From Lepraria neglecta (Eukaryota > Ascomycota > Lecanoromycetes > Lecanorales > Stereocaulaceae): a stretch of 64,000 bases of DNA. Of the stretch, positions 8,352-64,000 are shown in pieces. Position 1 is the stretch's first letter, and each line of letters starts with the position of its first letter. The notes under the pieces were generated by a model. That model was not told the origin of the DNA and did not search any database. It saw only the letters and a list, made by a program, of their open reading frames with translations. The stretch covers positions 1,178,001 to 1,242,000 of the forward strand of contig CM065650.1 of assembly GCA_033220425.1 (NCBI GenBank). The letters are read 5' to 3'. The position numbers and the translations under genes were made by a program.

Positions 8352-10299
8352 TCACAACAACCCCGGCCCCCTCAACCCTCGCTCATAATCAACATCCTTA
8401 CTCCACCTCACCTCCTTCCTCGCCCTCTCACTCCTTCCACTCCTCCCACTCCTCCTACTCCCTATCCTCATAACGCCCCCACCCCCACCCTCCCTACTCC
8501 TTCTCGCTAATCTTCCATCATTCGGGTTGGGGGTGTCGGCCCGTACATCTCCATGTACGTTGGGTGCGTCCCTCCGCTCGTGGCCCTTCTCACCACCACT
8601 ACCACTTCCCCTACCTACCCCACCCCCACCCTGCCGTAATATCTCCCCAGCACCAGGCGTCCCCCTCCTAGCCGGCGGCTGCAGTGGTTGGAGCGGTGTA
8701 CCGAGCCTCAGCGGCGTGCTGTTGTCCGAGCTTATAGATGCAAAAGCAGGGGATTCAGACATCGGCGGAATTCGATCTTGGGTATTAGAGCGTGGTTGCG
8801 TCAACGGACTAACTGGACTCGGCGACTGTCCCTGCGTCGCTCGTATGCGGGTATTTTGAATGGCAATCCGCTCCCAGGATACGAGGCCTGTGGGGTGGAC
8901 TAGATTACGTTGGGGCTGAGGCTGAGGTTGAGGTTGAGCCGGAGACAGCTTCTTATCTTTCCATTTTTTCCTAGAGCTGAATTTAGAGTTTGGAGGCTCG
9001 TAGCGCGTTGCCGGTAAGAAAGTCTGGGAGGGTTTTAATTCTGCTTCGGTGGGGATGGAGTGTTGGGATTGAGGTTGGTTGAAGAGGGTGGAGAAGGGGA
9101 TTGGCGAGTTGCGCGTTCGTATTGGTTGTTCTTCTGCTGAGGTTTTGGCGAATGGAATTGGAGACTTTGAACTGCGGGTTCGAAGGGGGGCGGGCATGGG
9201 GACTTTTTGCGGGTTTAAGGGGGCTGGATACGGGAGGGGGCGTGGGTTGTCGCTTTGGTTTCGTGAGTGGCCTTTTTGGGTGGGGATGGGGGTGGGGGTG
9301 CGGTGGTTGTAGGCTGGGGAGTGGGACCAGGTGGTTGTGGATTTGGAGATGTGTTTTCCGTTGCGGTGGTGGGATTGTGGGGGGGCGGTTTGGCCGTGGA
9401 CGTAGATTGTTGTTAGGAGGAGGGTTCCGATCAGAAATACGCCGACGGGGACGGAGATGGCTATTGCGACGCGGGTGGAGTAGGGAATGGTGGGAGAGGA
9501 TGAGGAGCAGTTAACGTTTGAGTAATTTGAGGGGGGATGGTAGGTGAATATTTCGGAGGGTCGGATGGGGAAGGGGAGGTTTGGTGCTGGTTGAATTCTG
9601 CAGGCGTATTCGAGGGTATTGAGGACTTTGCTTTTTGTTAAAAGACTGGATTTGTTGGGAAGCTGGAGGAGCTTACAGTTCGAGAAATACAGCTGGTTTG
9701 GAATTTTTGCAAAGCAGGAGGCACAGCCATCGACATTTGGAAGGAAGTTTGGGTCCTGGCAGTAGTCGTATGTTGTCGTTATATTCGGCATAAGAATGTT
9801 TATCTCGAGAGCGTTTGATATTTTGGTACAGGAGGAGAGACATTGAGTCGTTTGACTTGATATCAGGGACTGGTTTCCGTTATTTGGAAAACTAAATAGA
9901 CACCAGTCTAGAGTGTATCTTATGTTGTCTAGAATGTGTCAAATATCAGCCATTGATACTCCTTTTTTCCAGGAAACGAGACAATGAAGGCTTACAAAGG
10001 GCCCATCCTACGTCTGTCTGCACCGTATATGGGTTAATCGCCGGACTTTGGATCTCGCAGGACACGCAGTCCTGGAAAGCTTCTCCGACGACGGTACTGT
10101 TATAATCTTTGTCATGACAAACGATGTCGCTTCCATTGGTATTGTATGCTGTGGAGGCACTCGAGCACACAGATGTACAGTTGGATCCCGGAACAACGTA
10201 TAAGGCCAACGCACGCGGCAGAATCAAGGAAAGGATCAGTAGAGACACAGCAGGATGATACGATGTATCACTGCAACCAAACCAAAACAAGGGCCTCAT
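8352..10299 (-). CDS. Single-pass membrane protein with Cys-rich ectodomain and long disordered cytoplasmic tail
   Basis: Two exons on the minus strand: 10299-9996 and 9928-8352, with a 67-bp intron (GTAAGC...TTCTAG). The product is 626 residues. Residues 1-32 look like a signal peptide (hydrophobic core VSLLILSLILPRALAL). The ectodomain has many Cys and N-glycosylation sites (for example NCTSVCSS, DYCQDPNFLPNVDGCASCF). One transmembrane segment lies at about 255-278 (VAIAISVPVGVFLIGTLLL). The remaining ~350 residues are Pro/Ser/Arg-rich and end in a basic tail (KEVRWSKDVDYERGL). This is the common filamentous-fungal layout of a cell-surface sensor or wall-associated protein. No named family is recognised. 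The splice is supported by the continuous Cys-rich reading frame across the junction. Confidence 0.75.
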
Positions 10300-55171: not shown

Positions 55172-55179
55172 ATTTAGGC
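55172..55179. repeat. Left copy of 8-bp target-site duplication
   Basis: ATTTAGGC directly abuts the left terminal inverted repeat. The identical octamer lies at 60784-60791, directly abutting the right terminal repeat. Confidence 0.8.
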
Positions 55180-55196
55180 CAACGCTGTTAACGGTT
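55180..55196 (+). repeat. Left terminal inverted repeat, 17 bp
   Basis: CAACGCTGTTAACGGTT, identical to the reverse complement of 60767-60783. Confidence 0.85.
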
Positions 55197-56027
55197 TCAA
55201 CGGTCCAGTTGGAAGGCAAATTGGACCAACTACTAGATCTTGGTGGTTAGCAGTCTATAGCCTTTAAATAGACGCTACTAATTCTGCAGGCTTTGATAAC
55301 ATTCGAAATACCCCTTTTACTCAAAATTACTATAGTTTCGCGTAATAGGAGCGTGGTAAAGCCAGCGCTACAAAAGACCACAGATTCTTAGTGCTCGAGT
55401 ATAATACCGTTCTTTGCTTCAAAATTCTTATAGAATCTCTCAAACTACGTTATGCCTCCCGCCTATATATCCTAGCAAGTTTTAGCCCCCTGCACCACTT
55501 TTTAAGCAGCATTTTTCGCTGTTTTGTCAAGCAGGGAAGTGGCGGTTCGTGAAAACATGGGAAAGCCGATTATAAAGCCGAATACCGCTAATTACCTTGG
55601 CATGTAAATTTAGATCCGCCAACGCTACGGGCCGGCTCGCTGCCTTAACTTTCCCTCTCTCCTTGTATTTTACACGCCCCCTTCCCATCCTTTCCAATTC
55701 CCCATACCATCCCCCTCTTGGCTCATGCCAACACCGTTCGTTTACTCCGCCGTACTTAATATACGTCACTGCTACTCCTGTCCCGCCGTAGTTGCCAAAG
55801 GTCGATTTTGCCGGGTTCCAGCCTAACGGGGATGAGCTGCACCTCATCGACTACGAGACGTAGGCTACTTCTGTATTCTAATTCACACTTCAAAATGGAA
55901 GCTTTTCGGGATACTGACGTACCTCTCGTATATGAGTCTCTAACATACATATCCAAAAATATGAGATCTTAACGTTATTGGAATTTTCGAGGTCCACAGC
56001 GTATACGTGAGCATTGATACAGTCCGT
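55197..56027. other. Left interior of the element without a gene
   Basis: AT-rich DNA that from about 55761 becomes alignable, in inverse orientation, with the NLR promoter at 60219-60487. An open frame at 55527-55847 (minus) is not supported. Confidence 0.5.
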
Positions 56028-56239
56028 ATGGCTGAAGTAGTGGCTATCTTCGGACCCGTGTCCTCTATCGCCTCCCTCGTAGATCTAAGTACTAAAGTCG
56101 TATTTCGACTCCGCGAATATGCCTCTAGAACCTCCGACGTGCTAGAGTCCTTTCGTTCTCTATTGAGGCGACTTCCCTTATTGACTGTGACCCTCCAACG
56201 AATTAGAGAGCAAGCTCAGGCGGGTCGCTTACCTGACGA
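55761..56239 (+). repeat. Left arm of long inverted duplication
   Basis: It aligns with the reverse complement of 60007-60487. Shared text includes CTCCTGTCCCGCC, CAGCCTAACGGGG, TCACACTTCAAAAT and the first ~70 codons of the NLR. Homology stops abruptly at CCTGACGA, where the NLR copy continues and this copy switches to unrelated sequence. The arms are clearly diverged, so the duplication is not recent. Confidence 0.85.
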
Positions 56240-56255
56240 AAGTCATGAGCTATGA
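56028..56255 (+). pseudogene. Truncated SesA-like N-terminal fragment of an NLR
   Basis: The frame from the ATG at 56028 gives 75 residues, MAEVVAIFGPVSSIASLVDL through LPLLTVTLQRIREQAQAGRL, matching residues 1 to about 71 of the NLR at 56908-60218. It then ends after four foreign codons. No NTPase domain follows. It could be an expressed single-domain SesA-like peptide, but the abrupt break at 56239 points to a fragment. Confidence 0.75.
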
Positions 56256-56448
56256 AGACATCATTGAAGCACAGGCAAAGCGCGACATTAAGGATGCAGC
56301 AGGCCCCAGCCGACAACGTGGAGGTCGTCAGCGTAGACGAGGTACGACCAGGAAAAGCGATAAATCGCTCGCGGAAGAATTAGAAGATAGCAGGCGTGAG
56401 ATCCAAACACTTGGGCTAGAGCGGTATTGTTTAGTCTTGCAGTTTTGA
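56245..56448 (+). pseudogene. C-terminal remnant of a pogo/Fot1-type DDE transposase
   Basis: Sixty-seven codons, MSYEDIIEAQAKRDIKDAAG, a basic Arg/Gly stretch (RQRGGRQRRRGTTRKSDKS), an acidic helix (AEELEDSRREIQTLGLERY) and the end CLVLQF. Fungal Fot1/pogo-like transposases commonly end with such a basic block plus a GL-x-x-YC-x-VL-x-F terminus. The catalytic DDE domain is absent. It begins within a few bases of the point where the SesA copy breaks off. The family call is from memory of the tail pattern. Confidence 0.5.
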
Positions 56449-56907
56449 GCTTTGGCATCATGGAGTCTCCTTGTTGATTTAAAATAAGCTCAGTTGATGC
56501 TGAACTGTCGCGAAACAAGTAAATGCAACTGGGATTTGATATAAACCCCGGGGAACTCCGGGATAACCTGTTCGGGATTAGCTTTCCCAGAGAAAAGGGA
56601 GGATGGACTGTAGCAGCCACTTATATCATTCAAGCTTCCAATGGGTACTTAGAGAGCTTCGTTCGAAGGAGTTCTATTGATCCCCCTACTCCCCTGCTAT
56701 GTATAGTTCTATATAAAAGTGGGAGATTGGGTATGAAAACTCTGCTTGCTAAGGGTCTAACCCTATGCGGTTGGCACCCTGTCACGTGATCGCTACCCTT
56801 CTCTCCCAGCGCCAAGAGTTCTGTCATATAGCGCACTCTTCTCAAACTCTAAAATTTGGATATTTAATTTGAACATATAACTGCCGATTAGCTTTGCAGT
56901 GGGTCAT
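56449..56907. other. Spacer between transposase remnant and NLR 3' end
   Basis: No coding content is recognised. It may include the 3' end of the transposon remnant. Confidence 0.4.
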
Positions 56908-59900
56908 TTATTCATGAGTGTGGATTTGACAACTCGTACTCCTTACGCGCTCGAACATCTGTTCTGCCACGTCCAGCTTACCCTGCTCACAATATAGCCT
57001 ACCGAGTACGTGAACCGTATCGAGAGTCGAGGTATGGTCCGGCCCGAGTGCTTTCTCCGTCCCCGCCAGTGCTCGTAAGTACATCTGTTCTGCCACGTCC
57101 AGCTTACCCTGCTTACGATATAGCCTACCGAGTTCGTGGACCGTAGTGAGAGTCGAGGTATGGTCCGGTCCGAGTGCTTTCTTATACCCCGCCAGTGCTC
57201 GTAAGTGCATCTGTTCTGCCACGTCCAGCTTACCCTGCTCACAATATAGGCTACCGAGTGCGTGAACCGTATCGAGAGTCGAGGTGTGGTCCGGTCCAAG
57301 TGCTTTCTCCGTCCCCGCCAGTGCTCGTAAGTACATCTGTTCTGCCACGTCCAGCTTACCCTGCTTACGATATAGGCTACCGAGTGCGTGAACCGTATCG
57401 AGAGTCGAGGTATGGTCCGGCCCGAGTGCTTTCTCCGTCCCCGCCAGTGCTCGTAAGTACATCTGTTCTGCCACGTCCAGCTTACCCTGCTTACGATATA
57501 GCCTCCCGAGTGCGTGAACCGTATCGAGAGTCGAGGTATGGTCCGGCCCGAGTGCTTTCTCCTTCCCCGCCAGTGCTCGTAAGTACATCTGTTCTGCCAC
57601 GTCCAGCTTACCCTGCTCATGATATAGCCTACCGAGTGCGTGAACCGTATCGAGAGTCGAGGTATGGTCCGGCCCGAGTGCTTTCTCCGTCCCCGCCAGT
57701 GCTCGTAAGTACATCTGTTCTGCCACGTCCAGCTTACCCTGCTCACGATATAGGCTACCGAGTTCGTGAACCGTATCGAGAGTCGAGGTATGGTCCGGCC
57801 CGAGTGCTTTCTTATACCCCGCCAGTGCTCGTAAGTACATCTGTTCTGCCACGTCCAGCTTACCCTGCTCACGATATAGCCTACCGAGTTCGTGGACCGT
57901 AGTGAGAGTCGAGGTATGGTCCGGCCCGAGTGCTTTCTCCGTCCCCGCCAGTGCTCGTAAGTACATCTGTTCTGCTACGTCCAGCTTACCCTGCTTACGA
58001 TATAGCCTACCGAGTTCGTGGACCGTAGTGAGAGTCGAGGTATGGTCCGGTCCGAGTGCTTTCTCCGTCCCCACCAGTGCTCGTAAGTACATCTGTTCTG
58101 CCACGTCCAGCTTACCCTGCTCACGATATAGGATACCGAGTTCGTGGACCGTAGTGAGAGTCGAGGTATGGTCCGGTCCGAGTGCTTTCTCCGTCCCCAC
58201 CAGTGCTCGTAAGTACATCTGTTCTGCCACGTCCAGCTTACCCTGCTCACGATATAGGCTACCGAGTGCGTGAACCGTATCGAGAGTCGAGGTATGGTCC
58301 GGTCCGAGTGCTTTCTCCTTCCCTGCCAGTGCTCGCACGAACATCTGCTCGGCCTTCTTATGTCGGTCCCAACCTAACAGCACCAGCGCAATAACATGGG
58401 CCGCACTAAAGACAACCTCGTCTAAGGAGTGAGACCGCCATAATTGGCTGAAATGAGGCGACTCGAGATGTTCAACATGGTCTAACAGTCGCCGACTGGT
58501 AGACCAGTATTGTGGGTTGGATTTGTCCTCTATACTATCCGCAGCACACCTCAATGCGATCTCGAATAACAGCGGTATCGGCGGATTGTTGAGACCCTCA
58601 ATCAGCCAGTCGTGCAGACACGGGTGGACCTGATACGAGCCTATCACCACCTCCACCAGATTGTAGTCCTGAAGCCTCGACATCGCTCGCTGGAACCAAA
58701 CTTTATTTTCCGTGACACGACGTATACCAGGTACCGCGTCACTCGCTCCCGCTTTGATAAGCTCGTACCATATATCGCGGTTACTGAGATAGGCAAAGAA
58801 CGTTAAGAGCTCCGCGGCGTCATCGTCCTGCCTCCTCACCTGATCCAAAGAGATCGTCCACGTGGAGGCTAATGTACGTGCTTCGTACTCGTACAGCTCT
58901 TCAGTATCCGCTCCGACCAAGTCCGTCCACGTAGAATGATATAGGTCGAGATACTCATAACATAAGATGCCGGTTCGTCGTAAATAGGCGCCTGCCGTTG
59001 CCAGAGCCAATGGAAGTCCGTCGAGACGTTTCGCAAGGTCTGTCGCCGTACTATCTAGAACACGTCAGTGAAAGGACTTGAGAACGTCCATTAGGATTGG
59101 TTGCTCTCACCGCCGGAAAGATCCTGCCCAGAGCGCTGCGACAAGATAGCCACACCCGTCTCCACGTCTTCTAGCTTCTGCACTCGCAACTGTTTCCCAA
59201 AGGTTAATTTAGTGGATCGGGTAGTGATAATAATATTGCCTTGGGAACGTAGAGGAAAGTATGATCGAATGTCATACCCTGTTGGCGATCGGACGCCTGG
59301 CAGACTTGGATCATCGTAGTTGTCGAAGATTAAAAGCCACTGGTCATTTCCGGGCTCTGACAGCCATCGTCGGACCTGCTCGATCTTGACTTTCTCCTCA
59401 TCTATGCTTTGTGCTGTTGAATCATTAGATTTGTGGATAATCACAGTTGCCAAGTCTGCCATGCTCTGTCTCAAGCTTGTTTCATCTTTTGCGTTCAGCC
59501 AGAAAACCGACGAATACTCGTCAGCGCAGGCTCGCACGTGCGCCAGGCTCAACTGTGTCTTGCCCACCCCTCCCATGCCGGAAACACTGGTAATACGTTG
59601 ACGATGAGGATGCTGCGTCGGTATGAGGATGTCTCGCAGTTGCCGCAGCTCGGCCATCCGTCCAATGAAGGCATCCGGCTCGATCTCAGGTGCTTGTCCT
59701 AGGCAGACACCAAACGACTGGGGCGCCGCTAGTGGTGTCAAAGTCAATTTGGACAGCTCTTCTAGAATGCGATCACCCGTATCGACATGCTGCGTTGTCT
59801 GGTGTAAAACCAAGAAATCAACATCTTTATGTATCTTCTCCACTGCTTGACAGACTTTGTCTTCTCTCGCCAGGCTCTTCAAAGCCTTTAAGGCCCGTTC

Positions 59901-60218
59901 TGTCTTCGAAGCATTTTCTGGCGGGATAATGCCGGACAGACATGTTTGTACGATCGACACCTGCGCCAGTGTGCTGTCCACGACATCTCGTAGTGCCTTC
60001 GTCACATCGTCAGGTAAGCGACCCGCCTGGGCTTGAGTAGTGATTCGTTGGAGGATCGCGGTCAGTAAAGGCAGGCGGGTGGACAGAGCACGAAAGGATT
60101 TTGGGACGTCGGAGGTTCTGGAGGTGAACTCGCGTAGTCGAGATACGATTTGGGCACTGAGGTCGACGAGGGAGGCGATAGAGGTCACGAGTCCGAGGAT
60201 AGCTATCGCTTCGGCCAT
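56908..60218 (-). CDS. Fungal NLR/STAND protein: SesA-like domain, NB-ARC NTPase, 11 near-identical TPRs
   Basis: Two exons: 60218-59111 and 59054-56908, with a 56-bp intron (GTGAGA...TTCTAG) that restores LDGLPLALATAGAYLRR. The product is 1,084 residues. The in-frame reading seven codons upstream begins with GTG, so the ATG at 60218 is chosen. Residues 1 to about 143 form a helical SesA-like domain (MAEAIAILGLVTSIASLVDL, SDVPKSFRALSTRLPLLTAI), found on NACHT/NB-ARC proteins in fungal self/non-self systems. NB-ARC: P-loop GMGGVGKT (214-221), Walker B LLIFDNYDD (295-303), sensor GNIIITTR, GLPL box (382-385). A linker of ~200 residues ends near WDRHKKAEQM. Eleven 42-residue TPR units and a partial twelfth complete the protein. 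All nucleotide-binding motifs are intact. Expected action is ligand sensing by TPRs, ATP-driven oligomerisation and signalling or cell death through the SesA end. Confidence 0.9.
56968..58353. repeat. Eleven tandem 126-bp TPR repeats
   Basis: Exactly 11 x 126 bp, in frame, coding 42-residue units of type AEQMYLRALAGTEKALGPDH followed by TSTLDTVHALGRLYREQGKL and DV. A partial unit follows at the C-terminus. Differences are confined to about ten positions of the unit (5, 6, 10, 12, 13, 25, 29, 32, 35, 36), with positions 12, 25, 29, 32, 35 and 36 varying repeatedly. Confidence 0.97.
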
Positions 60219-60487
60219 ATCGCCTGTATCAAAGCTCACGTATGCACTCCCGACTGCGAGAACCTTAATAATAACAGTATTTTGTCCTTAAAAATGTGTG
60301 TAAGAGACTTATGTGTAAGATATATATCAGAATCCCTTATATTTTGAAGTGTGATATAGGATATAGAGAGAGCCTGCGTCCTAGCGCTTGGCTGGCGATG
60401 AGATGCAGCTCAGCCCCGTTAGGCTGAACCCGTAAAATTGCCAACTAACTTTTAAGGACTATGGCGGGACAGGAGCACCGATAACGC
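60007..60487 (-). repeat. Right arm of long inverted duplication
   Basis: It contains the NLR promoter and first ~70 codons and aligns with the reverse complement of 55761-56239. Confidence 0.85.
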
Positions 60488-60766
60488 ATTTACAGGACCG
60501 CGAATTAAACGTATAGGTTGGCAGAAAGCAACAAGCATTGATAGTAGGGAGGCTGCGGAGAAGGGGAACAGAAGGAGAGGTCACTAATAGTTTTAGACAG
60601 TTCGCCAAGACCACTGGAATTAGCTTCGGGGCTAACTCCGGGAGCTGTAGCCCTTAAGTCCGATATAAGCGTAAAAAATCAGACCTAATATCTAGGTACT
60701 GTACTACTATTAAGGAAAAAAAGGCAGACTAACGGTCAAAATCGTTAAGACCCTTAATAGTTGGTC
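60219..60766. promoter_or_regulatory. NLR promoter region inside the element
   Basis: It lies between the NLR start codon and the right terminal repeat. A TA-rich box (TATATATC near 60321) lies about 100 bp upstream of the ATG. The proximal ~270 bp are duplicated in the left arm. Confidence 0.4.
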
Positions 60767-60783
60767 AACCGTTAACAGCGTTG
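60767..60783 (-). repeat. Right terminal inverted repeat, 17 bp
   Basis: AACCGTTAACAGCGTTG, the exact reverse complement of 55180-55196. Confidence 0.85.
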
Positions 60784-60791
60784 ATTTAGGC
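60784..60791. repeat. Right copy of 8-bp target-site duplication
   Basis: ATTTAGGC, identical to 55172-55179 and directly abutting the right terminal repeat. Confidence 0.8.
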
Positions 60792-60987: not shown

Positions 60988-62617
60988 CTAAACGGACAGC
61001 TTCAACTTCTTACGGCGATCCCGGCTCTGCTCCCTAGACTCCGTCTTCGCCATCGATGCTATAGAGAAAGACGACGCATTGTAATCTGAAAGGTCGACTT
61101 CGAGTTCTTCCATGGCAACGGACCCACGTTTCCGTGGCGAATATTGGTTCGTGGGTGATGCGGCTGCGGACGACCGAGTAGTGTAGGATTGGGTTGTATA
61201 GGCTGGTGTTGGAGGCTCTAGCAAGCCCGGGCTCGCACAACCTTCAGAGCCGCTGGCGTTTATGCAAGACCGTTGCTGTTTCGTCCGGCTCCGTTCCACA
61301 GTCGCCATCCAGTTCCTCGCGGCACGAGCAATTATGGAATGCAAGCCGCCCCATCGAATGCGATTCACTCCTAGGGTGTTTCGCTCGAAGAGGTTGTTCA
61401 ACCCAAGGGCGAGCCTTTCGATGTGTATGTTTGGAGGCTTGTCACCGAAGTCGAAATGTAGGGTAAGAGTATGGCCTATGGCGGTATCTTGGTTGGAGAT
61501 ATCCATTTGAGATGTCTGCCGAGTCGTCTGTCGAGTCGTTCGGGCCTTTGTATCTCCTCTTCGCAGTGGATGAAGCATAATGCGACCAGCCGAAGTCTTC
61601 TCCTCCCTGTCGGATAATACCGGAGTCTGATTTTTAGGGAAGTGTGGTGCATCTTCTTTGATCTTATTCAGGAGCTCCACTGTGGTGAAACGACCTCCCT
61701 GCTGCTCCTCCACTAGAGCTTCTAATGCATATATCAGAGCGGATGTGAAAGAGTCTTTGCCTGGGACAGGAGTCGAGGCCATCTCCTTGGTCGCAGCGAG
61801 ATATTCGAACAATCTGGAGCTCGTTAGCTAGGCATTACTATCAAATCAATAGCGAAACTTACCTTGGTTGCCCTCGAGTAAGTCCCAGATTACCAGCATA
61901 GCAGCTTCAATGACGCATTAGCGAATGACTCGTCGCTGCGAAGGTGGAAGATTACCAGTCAAAGAGTTCAAGAACATCCGCTTCAGCGGGCTTCAGGAGG
62001 TCCTCAGTCTGGTTCCAAACTATGCTGTTGACGCGTTTCCTCTTGTCGTCAAGGTGCTTCTTCTTGTCGTCACGTTCCTTCTTGGTGTGTCCAAGTTGCT
62101 TCTTCGTCTCGGTTCCGTGTTTCTCGGTATCATTTGGAGAACATTTTCTAAGAGGATCAGCGACTGCTCGAGTATTTAAGAGACGTTCTTTGACTTACCC
62201 AAAAAGCTCCAGAGAGCCAAAGTAGCTTCCCGGTCGACCATGACCGGCATAGTATACTATGAGGAGAGTATTTGGTCCATCATGAGCTTTAACAAAGGCT
62301 GCAACGGTCGCATTGACGTGCACTTGCAGCTTCGTTTCGAGACTATTGTCGAGATACTCTATCTGAGTGTTGTATTTGAATTTCTTCTCGAAGACTGCTT
62401 TGAGCCTTTTCACCTCCCCTTTGGTGCTCATGTCATTGGAGTCATCTTGCCAACACAACAGTAAGGCCTCGACCTTTTCATAAGTAGAAGGTTTTTGATA
62501 GTTTCCTCGGTCCATGATCTCACTCCATTTCAATTGATGCTCCGAGTTGTCAATTTCATCTCTGAACTGGTAGTTGACTATTTTGGGCGTCTGCGGCGTT
62601 CGTAGTTTGGGCTGCAT
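60988..62617 (-). CDS. Caspase-like protease (peptidase C14)
   Basis: Four exons: 62617-62199, 62147-61956, 61904-61863 and 61813-60988, with introns of 51, 51 and 49 bp. The product is 492 residues. It begins MQPKLRTPQTPKIVNYQFRD. The catalytic His is in NTLLIVYYAGHGRPGS (His126) and the Cys in ELFDCCYAGNLG (Cys205, rebuilt exactly by splicing a 42-bp exon). Between them lies a Lys/Asp-rich stretch (TKKERDDKKKHLDDKRKR, about 161-178) that looks like an added charged helix. Downstream, FTSALIYALEALVEEQQ and the tail IHIERLALGLNNLF follow, with a disordered Ser-rich end and basic terminus. The fold groups with metacaspase/caspase-like peptidases, implicated in fungal cell death and stress. Both catalytic residues are present, so activity is plausible. 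It is on the same strand as the NLR, whose element ends 204 bp away. Confidence 0.87.
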
Positions 62618-64000
62618 TGTGGACCGGATGATTTTATTGTCTCTTGAACAGCGAGGCTAGAACCATGCGAATGGCGGTGCGTTGCCTTCGAGGAAGGAGA
62701 TGTCTTGATCAAATTCTGTAAGCCTTGTCAGATCTCCATTTTTCTGGAGGAAAGGTCGTCGATGACCGATCTTTTCAGGTAATCCTCACTTTATATGGGC
62801 AATCATCTAGTCAACATCCGCAGGAGCCGCAGTGAGCTGTTCAAGGCTGTGCTGTAACGGTGTACAGCGGACTCGATGAATATCTTCAATTGCCCAGCCA
62901 CTTCGTGAGCCTGAGCTGGATCGCAGCTCCAAGCCAACGGAGACATAGCCTGAAAGGACACAATGGTATTCATCGCGATTGAAGGAGCTGCCAGCTTTCG
63001 AAATGCGCCTGAGCTGCCAGCTGCCTTATGCCTGATGCCTGATGCCTGATCAACCATATTGTGATACGGTGATAGAGTGTTGTTTTCACTAAGGGACGCA
63101 CATAGCCCCAAAGCTACGATATATCATGCTGCATAAGCTGGGAAATTCAAACCCTCCACACACCATGAACATGGCCGAATGCAAGTCTGCTTTTCTTGGC
63201 CGAGATTGTCTGCCATGTCATCACATTTAGATGCTTTTCGGCTTAAAAGATTCTGTACCAACGTTTAAGAGACGTACAAAATTCACAATTCTGTAAGCAA
63301 AAATATATTGTCAAACTTCGTATCTGTGGAGTTAGAGCGGGTGGGGTTTGGCCGGTTGGGGGGTGAGCCCTTCTAGTGGGGCGCCAAATTGCGCAGGCCG
63401 CAGAAAGCTCTTTAGTCGATTCCAAGCTCGCCTATCAGTGTGGGGTTCTCTACACCCACAGCCCTCAATTGCAACCCCGCAACCACGATTTGGACCGTTG
63501 ATTGGACTTCTTGTTAGCGATTGCTGATAAGAGAGACAAAGAGAATGTGCAGAGCCGCAAGGTCAACAAACCTGAGAGGCTGGCCTTGCGAAGCGTGATA
63601 TTTAAGGGTGGGCCCCCAATGGCGCAGCAAAAGCTTCACGGGCCGTAGCTCTCTGTCGATCTCACCAGGCTTTCCAAGACGCCCTTTTTTCACCATGACG
63701 GAACAAGGCTCTGTAAGAGTGCCGTTCTGGGCAGCAACGCTAGGCGCAAGTGCTGATTGTAGCGCAGCAAGGCCCATTCAAGCCTACTGAAAGGGCAGAT
63801 GTTGACAGGAGGAACACATTGCCGGTAAGAATTTGAACTCCGAAGACGCTGTAGCAGTAATGCAACAAGTTCTCATACCAGATTTTAGCGTCCGCGAAGG
63901 TATCTAGATGGAAGAAAGCTCAACAAGACGGATGAACAAGGCATCTTTACATACCAGGTCACCGTCGTAAGCGCCGTGTATGACAGCCAGCAGCACACAT
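62618..64000. other. Right-edge region without supported gene
   Basis: It contains the promoter of the caspase-like gene. Short frames at 62803-63111 and 63514-63777 (minus) have no recognisable content. A 7-bp tandem repeat lies at 63029-63049. Confidence 0.35.
63029..63049. repeat. Short tandem repeat (TGCCTGA)3
   Basis: Three perfect heptamers in non-coding sequence. Confidence 0.9.

Follow-up and report, generated by a model that had tools for sequence, protein, structure and literature searches.

Can a small cut-and-paste transposon carry an intact immune-receptor gene? NLR repertoires vary among fungi, and the factors that drive this variation are described as incompletely understood (PMC12258605). 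The question is raised by a 5.6-kb cassette in Lepraria neglecta, where an NLR gene lies between terminal inverted repeats (TIRs), each directly adjoined by a copy of the octamer ATTTAGGC in the manner of a target-site duplication (TSD). We analysed this cassette within a 64-kb window of contig CM065650.1; coordinates without a prefix refer to the window (C5:1178001-1242000), C1, C2 and so on are contigs of the same genome, and searches of that genome covered 42,023,604 bases in 11 contigs. We conclude that the cassette is probably a gene-bearing, non-autonomous hAT element of a Pack-hAT-like kind, in which a miniature element is split by NLR cargo and which a related transposase could move.

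A receptor gene within a split miniature element

An initial annotation of this DNA had described perfect 17-bp TIRs, an identical octamer abutting both of them and a subterminal motif near each end. All of these were recovered at the places given in Table 1, with complementarity of the TIRs at 17 of 17 positions. Allowing up to three mismatches, the 17-mer has two matches in the window, both of them cassette ends, against 0.06 expected, and none of 100 shuffled sequences reached two. The exact 17-mer occurs four times genome-wide and the reversed pattern not at all; two of the four are the cassette ends, and the other two are the ends of C1:3945199-3945622. The subterminal motif GACCAACTA occurs twice in the window against 0.34 expected, with 5 of 100 shuffles reaching two. 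By itself ATTTAGGC is not rare (1.59 copies expected in the window and three present; 19 of 100 shuffles reached three) and carries weight only because both copies abut TIR ends. Since the right flank by chance runs on with CAAC, the direct repeat extends to ATTTAGGCCAAC; the two ends are complementary exactly as far as CAACG, and this sets the duplication at 8 bp. The length of the TIRs falls inside the range of 5-27 bp given for hAT elements (PMC12506042).

The genome-wide search for the TIR pair thus returned one further pair, which bounds a solo miniature element of 424 bp (C1:3945199-3945622) with a perfect 8-bp TSD of its own, GTTCTTTC, on each side. Compared with this solo element, the two arms of the cassette are non-overlapping, complementary pieces of one element: read in the same direction, the left arm corresponds to solo positions 424-347 and the right arm to 306-172 followed by 80-1. 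About 5.3 kb of cargo (55256-60579) replaces solo positions 307-346, and the trinucleotide GTC stands at each edge of the cargo and, in the solo element, at each edge of the stretch that the cassette lacks. Solo positions 175-246 were matched, among the matches listed and in a local comparison, only in the solo element and the cassette, and we therefore take the two as sister copies. Since the arms represent different parts of a single element and have the same octamer on their outer sides, both ends were inserted in one event. On this comparison, the cassette is a single miniature hAT-type element split between positions 306 and 347 by the cargo. At the cargo edges, any remnant of the missing 40 bp was no better than chance (500 shuffles; fractions of 0.74 on the left and 0.63 on the right scored as high), and at the inner borders no target-type duplication was seen, only GTC on both sides, which is present in the solo element too.

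The SesA/NB-ARC/TPR receptor, named in the initial annotation as the sole intact gene of the cassette, is indeed the one long gene that we found intact there. Its Pfam matches are all above the cut-off (SesA, 3.7e-15; NB-ARC, 1.2e-6; TPR_12, 1.3e-143), and it has the layout of a fungal NLR, with an N-terminal signalling domain, NB-ARC and superstructure repeats. In fungal NLRs the TPR array binds ligands, oligomerisation depends on nucleotide and signalling proceeds through SesA; by analogy, the receptor in the cassette presumably works in the same way. Diversifying selection was not detected among ten of the 11 TPR units, the last, diverged one having been dropped: the proportions of nonsynonymous (pN, 0.056) and synonymous (pS, 0.064) differences give a ratio of 0.87, not above 1. 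The cargo is composite and includes two oppositely oriented receptor paralogues, the second of them broken off (Table 1). Between the two lie a short open frame, which by eye resembles a pogo/Fot1-type transposase tail, and a nested element of 214 bp that occurs at more than 20 places in the genome.

Table 1. Features of the cassette, in window coordinates
Feature	Position	Strand	Remarks
Left TSD copy, ATTTAGGC, 8 bp	55172..55179	+	Directly adjoins left TIR
Left TIR, CAACGCTGTTAACGGTT, 17 bp	55180..55196	+	17/17 complementary to right TIR
Left arm, one end of miniature hAT element	55180..55255	-	Solo positions 347-424, 95% identical
Left subterminal motif, GACCAACTA	55224..55232	+	27 bp inward of left TIR
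Cargo without other DNA match in genome	55258..55725	.	No match in genome DNA search
5' fragment of second NLR, broken off	55726..56239	+	Inverted copy of region upstream of NLR plus SesA start, 71% DNA identity
Short open frame	56245..56445	+	Part 56371-56456 matches DNA upstream of C1 paralogue at 74%
Nested dispersed element, 214 bp	56591..56804	+	Ends AGAAAAGGG / CCCTTCTCT; 5-bp duplications CCCAG at 56586-56590 and 56805-56809
NLR gene, 1084 aa, intact; SesA, NB-ARC, TPR	56908..60218	-	Putative 56-bp intron 59055-59110, GT/AG borders
TPR array	56955..58354	-	126-bp unit, 11.1 copies, 94% matches
Region upstream of NLR	60219..60523	-	Recurs inverted in left fragment
Right arm, other part of miniature hAT element	60580..60783	-	Solo positions 1-80 (89%) and 172-306 (84%)
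Right subterminal motif, GACCAACTA	60758..60766	-	Directly beside right TIR
Right TIR, 17 bp	60767..60783	-	Complement of left TIR
Right TSD copy, ATTTAGGC	60784..60791	+	Directly adjoins right TIR

The hAT family and a candidate transposase

Elements related to the cassette are present elsewhere in the genome. With the solo element as query we found at least 47 matches, counting the element itself and three pieces of the cassette, a lower bound because scoring covered 40 of the 50 candidates. End motifs of the left type, in which the repeat is combined with ACCRACTA, number 68, and those of the right type, in which it is combined with GGTCCAGTTT, number 50, with none for either reversed control; the repeat-only pattern is noisier, with 367 places against 160 for its reverse. 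Pairing the left and right lists by position gave 33 pairs, the cassette counted, that span 271-9,544 bp (median 694), seven of them longer than 3 kb; these pairs rest on motif position, and duplications were examined in part of them. In a sample of 25 distinct non-cassette right ends (29 rows, less one for the cassette itself and three that repeated a place already counted), 12 have a left-end partner and an exact 8-bp TSD within the sequence examined. Five further elements with exact TSDs (C2:5907562-5910889, C7:294754-300964, C5:4769348-4773323, C1:4098742-4099936 and C4:2802979-2806218) bring the total to 17 besides the cassette. These 17 duplications, the motif counts and a related hAT transposase described below support the hAT-like reading of the initial annotation and place the cassette ends in a family of hAT type that is native to no single locus but has many members in the genome.

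Two of the large members differ in content. The 3,240-bp element C4:2802979-2806218 has an exact TSD, ACTGTGTT, and a low-complexity stretch inside; it gave no match in the transposase search, and its frames look by eye like those of what we assume to be a pogo-type transposase. The 6,211-bp element C7:294754-300964 has an exact TSD, GAATCAAT, and an AT-rich, decayed interior, with a GC (guanine plus cytosine) fraction mostly of 0.28-0.38 in 300-bp steps.

The hAT dimerisation domain (PF05699) has 18 matches in the genome. A 3,238-bp element, C4:874677-877914, contains a stop-free frame of 823 residues, with the first methionine at residue 34, whose C-terminal 616 residues match PF05699 at 1e-19. 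Used as a query, these 616 residues gave 19 matches, among which this element alone is complete and free of stops. At least one stop interrupts 17 of the other 18, and in nine there are ten or more; almost all of these stops are TAG and TAA, as repeat-induced point mutation (RIP) would leave. The ends of the C4 element carry the ACCRACTA and GGTCCAGTTT motifs, as does the cassette family. Our search for a hAT transposase with matching TIRs, suggested by the initial annotation, was thus answered in part, by a stop-free element that shares the end motifs but not the full TIR. On the sequence, the C4 element is an autonomous-looking hAT and, given the incomplete TIR match, a plausible, unproven helper for the cassette. 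A protein 96% identical to its transposase exists in another sample (P0241).

The cargo would have entered the miniature element through template-switching repair of an internal break, at a cost of about 40 bp. Because the TIRs, the subterminal motifs and the duplication are whole, a related hAT transposase, possibly the stop-free one at C4:874677-877914, could then cut and paste the entire package. With intact ends, a solo sister, a stop-free related transposase and an intact receptor as the only long gene, one route by which fungal NLR repertoires could come to vary becomes directly testable; the locus asks whether a hAT transposase moves the receptor and whether strains differ by its presence.

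Origin of the loaded element

Several observations weigh against reading the cassette as a gene-bearing hAT element that can move. The TIRs of the C4 element are identical to those of the cassette at only 13 of 17 positions, and its own duplication is imperfect (CATCCACA / ATCATCCA, offset by 2). The family is irregular in places: one right end (L025) pairs with one mismatch in its duplication, and 12 of the 25 sampled right ends lack a duplication-matched partner in the sequence examined, although two of these were paired later. For two more of these 12, C6:937764 and C4:3088851, the DNA reaching about 6 and 8 kb upstream contained no convincing left end, C8:2896233-2897125 pairs by position with no matching duplication, and C2:4866621-4867820 has nine identical bases rather than eight. 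The cassette is moreover single-copy in its own genome and so gives no sign of multiplication. Searches with the receptor cargo in three pieces (55172-56880, 56810-59000 and 59000-60600) found no close donor: the best other DNA match is 73% (C1:5352339-5353307), and for the TPR part it is 67% (C6:4259268-4260319).

The best of these matches falls within an NLR paralogue on C1 (C1:5352188-5353354) whose protein is 64% identical to the cassette receptor. We considered this paralogue as a second cassette and rejected it, because the flanking DNA read, 2.0 kb on the upstream and 3.0 kb on the downstream side, contained none of the family's ends. Frames in the DNA upstream of it (C1:5353301-5355300) look by eye like a pogo/Tc1-type transposase.

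For a gene-bearing hAT element there remain two ways in which cargo and ends could have come together, and we regard the choice between loading in place and arrival as a unit as near even. Arrival as a unit, in which the element was loaded elsewhere and then inserted by hAT cut-and-paste, has a little below an even chance. The perfect TIRs and duplication around the loaded element speak for it, as does the lack of a close donor in the genome; no second loaded copy was found, which speaks the other way. The relatives of the receptor point in both directions. Its closest protein matches are one database protein at 75% and Rhinocladiella mackenziei at 69%, followed by lichen fungi, Exophiala oligosperma and one other at 55-59%. 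In a tree of 24 rows, which leaves 9 of its 21 inner branches unresolved, the cassette receptor groups with the top database match, Rhinocladiella and Exophiala (supports 99/97, 99/94 and 96/92), whereas the genome's own paralogue is placed with lichen fungi (86/89). This pattern hints at transfer between classes, and an old duplication followed by loss would fit it too. Against arrival from such a source, identity in the SesA part is much the same with Heterodermia (P0008, 76%) and with P0001 (74%), and lower with Rhinocladiella (65%); its match to P0023, a protein of other architecture, is 78%. For comparison, the closest named proteins to an Spt5 exon of the window come from lichen-forming Lecanoromycetes (Psora crenata, 86%), with another match at 97% over 74% of the query.

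Two database proteins, P0023 and P0046, carry a SesA domain near that of the cassette receptor and a different C-terminal part; P0046 has a precomputed protein-kinase domain (PF00069). Their architectures are those of domain swapping around this SesA.

Loading in place, to which we give a somewhat smaller but still substantial chance, holds that the miniature element inserted at ATTTAGGC and that a later internal break was repaired with receptor DNA; the octamers would in that case mark when the miniature element, still empty, arrived, and the NLR would be a passenger that never transposed. The single copy is in keeping with this account, and the break points lie inside the element (306 and 347 of 424) with GTC at both, not at its ends. 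The 3,240-bp and 6,211-bp members also contain non-transposase DNA, and the study of Pack-TIRs in animals points to loading in place where an element is single-copy (PMC8277862). In those animals, however, the fillers often lie near a recognisable parent (PMC8277862), whereas here the best match is 73% and on another contig; that the cargo combines two receptor paralogues in opposite orientation also tells against it.

A longer journey, in which the NLR was loaded into a hAT miniature element in another fungus, entered a lichen-type fungus and inserted intact as a mobile receptor package, we consider unlikely. Black yeasts and lichens sharing a thallus would perhaps offer the setting. If such a package existed, small cut-and-paste elements would spread immune receptors between fungi, besides the giant Starships.

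The family has dozens of copies, and two separate miniature elements might have landed on either side of a resident NLR. This we hold to be very improbable and rejected: two insertions would leave differing duplications and two full elements, whereas the outer octamers are identical and each arm is one complementary part without overlap. That an ordinary gene should be framed by such repeats and an octamer through coincidence has a negligible probability, common as GACCAACTA and ATTTAGGC individually are, given two TIR matches where 0.06 were expected and four exact 17-mers in 42 Mb that form two bounded elements with none among the reversed controls.

Relation to known gene-carrying elements

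The cassette shares with hAT elements and their miniatures the 8-bp duplications, the short TIRs and a related transposase with hAT dimerisation domain in the same genome; it differs in having no transposase of its own, in carrying an intact NLR and in TIRs that agree only in part with those of the stop-free element. Like animal Pack-TIRs (PMC8277862), it contains DNA of a gene unrelated to transposable elements between intact TIRs and a duplication, with internal break points. Their screen, however, requires a 90%-identical parental copy, and the best matches of the cassette in its genome reach 73% in DNA, 64% in protein and 67% for the TPR part; its cargo is 5.3 kb with an intact gene. Lacking such a parental copy, the cassette resembles a Pack-TIR and falls outside that definition. 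A fungal hAT element of Pseudocercospora fijiensis, likewise with an 8-bp duplication, has captured a host gene, histone H3 (PMC6710886). That copy is described as intron-less, transcript-like, present in hundreds and inactivated by RIP, whereas the cassette is single and has an intron and an intact frame.

NLR-family cargo is also in print for ToxhAT, an element of 14 kb whose TIRs enclose, among other genes, one for a Patatin-TPR protein (PMC6737239, PMC11857905). Its TA duplication led in 2025 to reassignment to Tc1/mariner and to the new name ToxTA (PMC12506042). Both it and the cassette are non-autonomous TIR elements with an NLR-family gene as cargo. ToxTA, in contrast, has 74-bp repeats, rides in Starships, was shown to move and includes ToxA and an MFS gene in its cargo; the cassette has neither the TA duplication nor the 74-bp repeats but an 8-bp duplication and 17-bp TIRs.

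Among the giant Starships, too, there is a mobile fungal element that carries an NLR of SesA type: one SesA-NACHT-WD40 NLR is reported in a Gaeumannomyces Starship (PMC12134995). The cassette differs as a 5.6-kb TIR element, and we rejected it as part of a Starship: none of the 36 genome matches to the captain, the DUF3435 tyrosine recombinase (PF11917) that stands at one edge of a Starship, lies in the window, and the nearest on C5 is weak and partial (1065184-1065495), about 168 kb away. Several of the 36 contain stops, and one pair lies in a 530-residue stop-free frame (C6:3007792-3008835).

The initial annotation knew of no description of a 5.6-kb TIR cassette with NLR cargo. Its claim has to be limited, since ToxhAT/ToxTA is already in print, as is gene capture by a fungal hAT; among the papers listed from the open-access literature searched (subscription papers and preprints lay outside it), we found no NLR inside a fungal hAT or miniature hAT. 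What we rate as new is thus an intact NLR in a fungal miniature hAT, NLR-family cargo in a TIR element and hAT gene capture being already known.

Two further features lie in the window outside the cassette. Just to its right, on the minus strand, is a caspase-like gene (about 60988-62656, extent judged by eye) with a YYAGHG motif and weak matches below the cut-off to Peptidase_C14 (E = 0.012) and Raptor_N (E = 0.0075). At 9001-10000 the GC skew is +0.53, greatly exceeding its values elsewhere in the window, and a 528-aa open frame there is rich in proline and serine.

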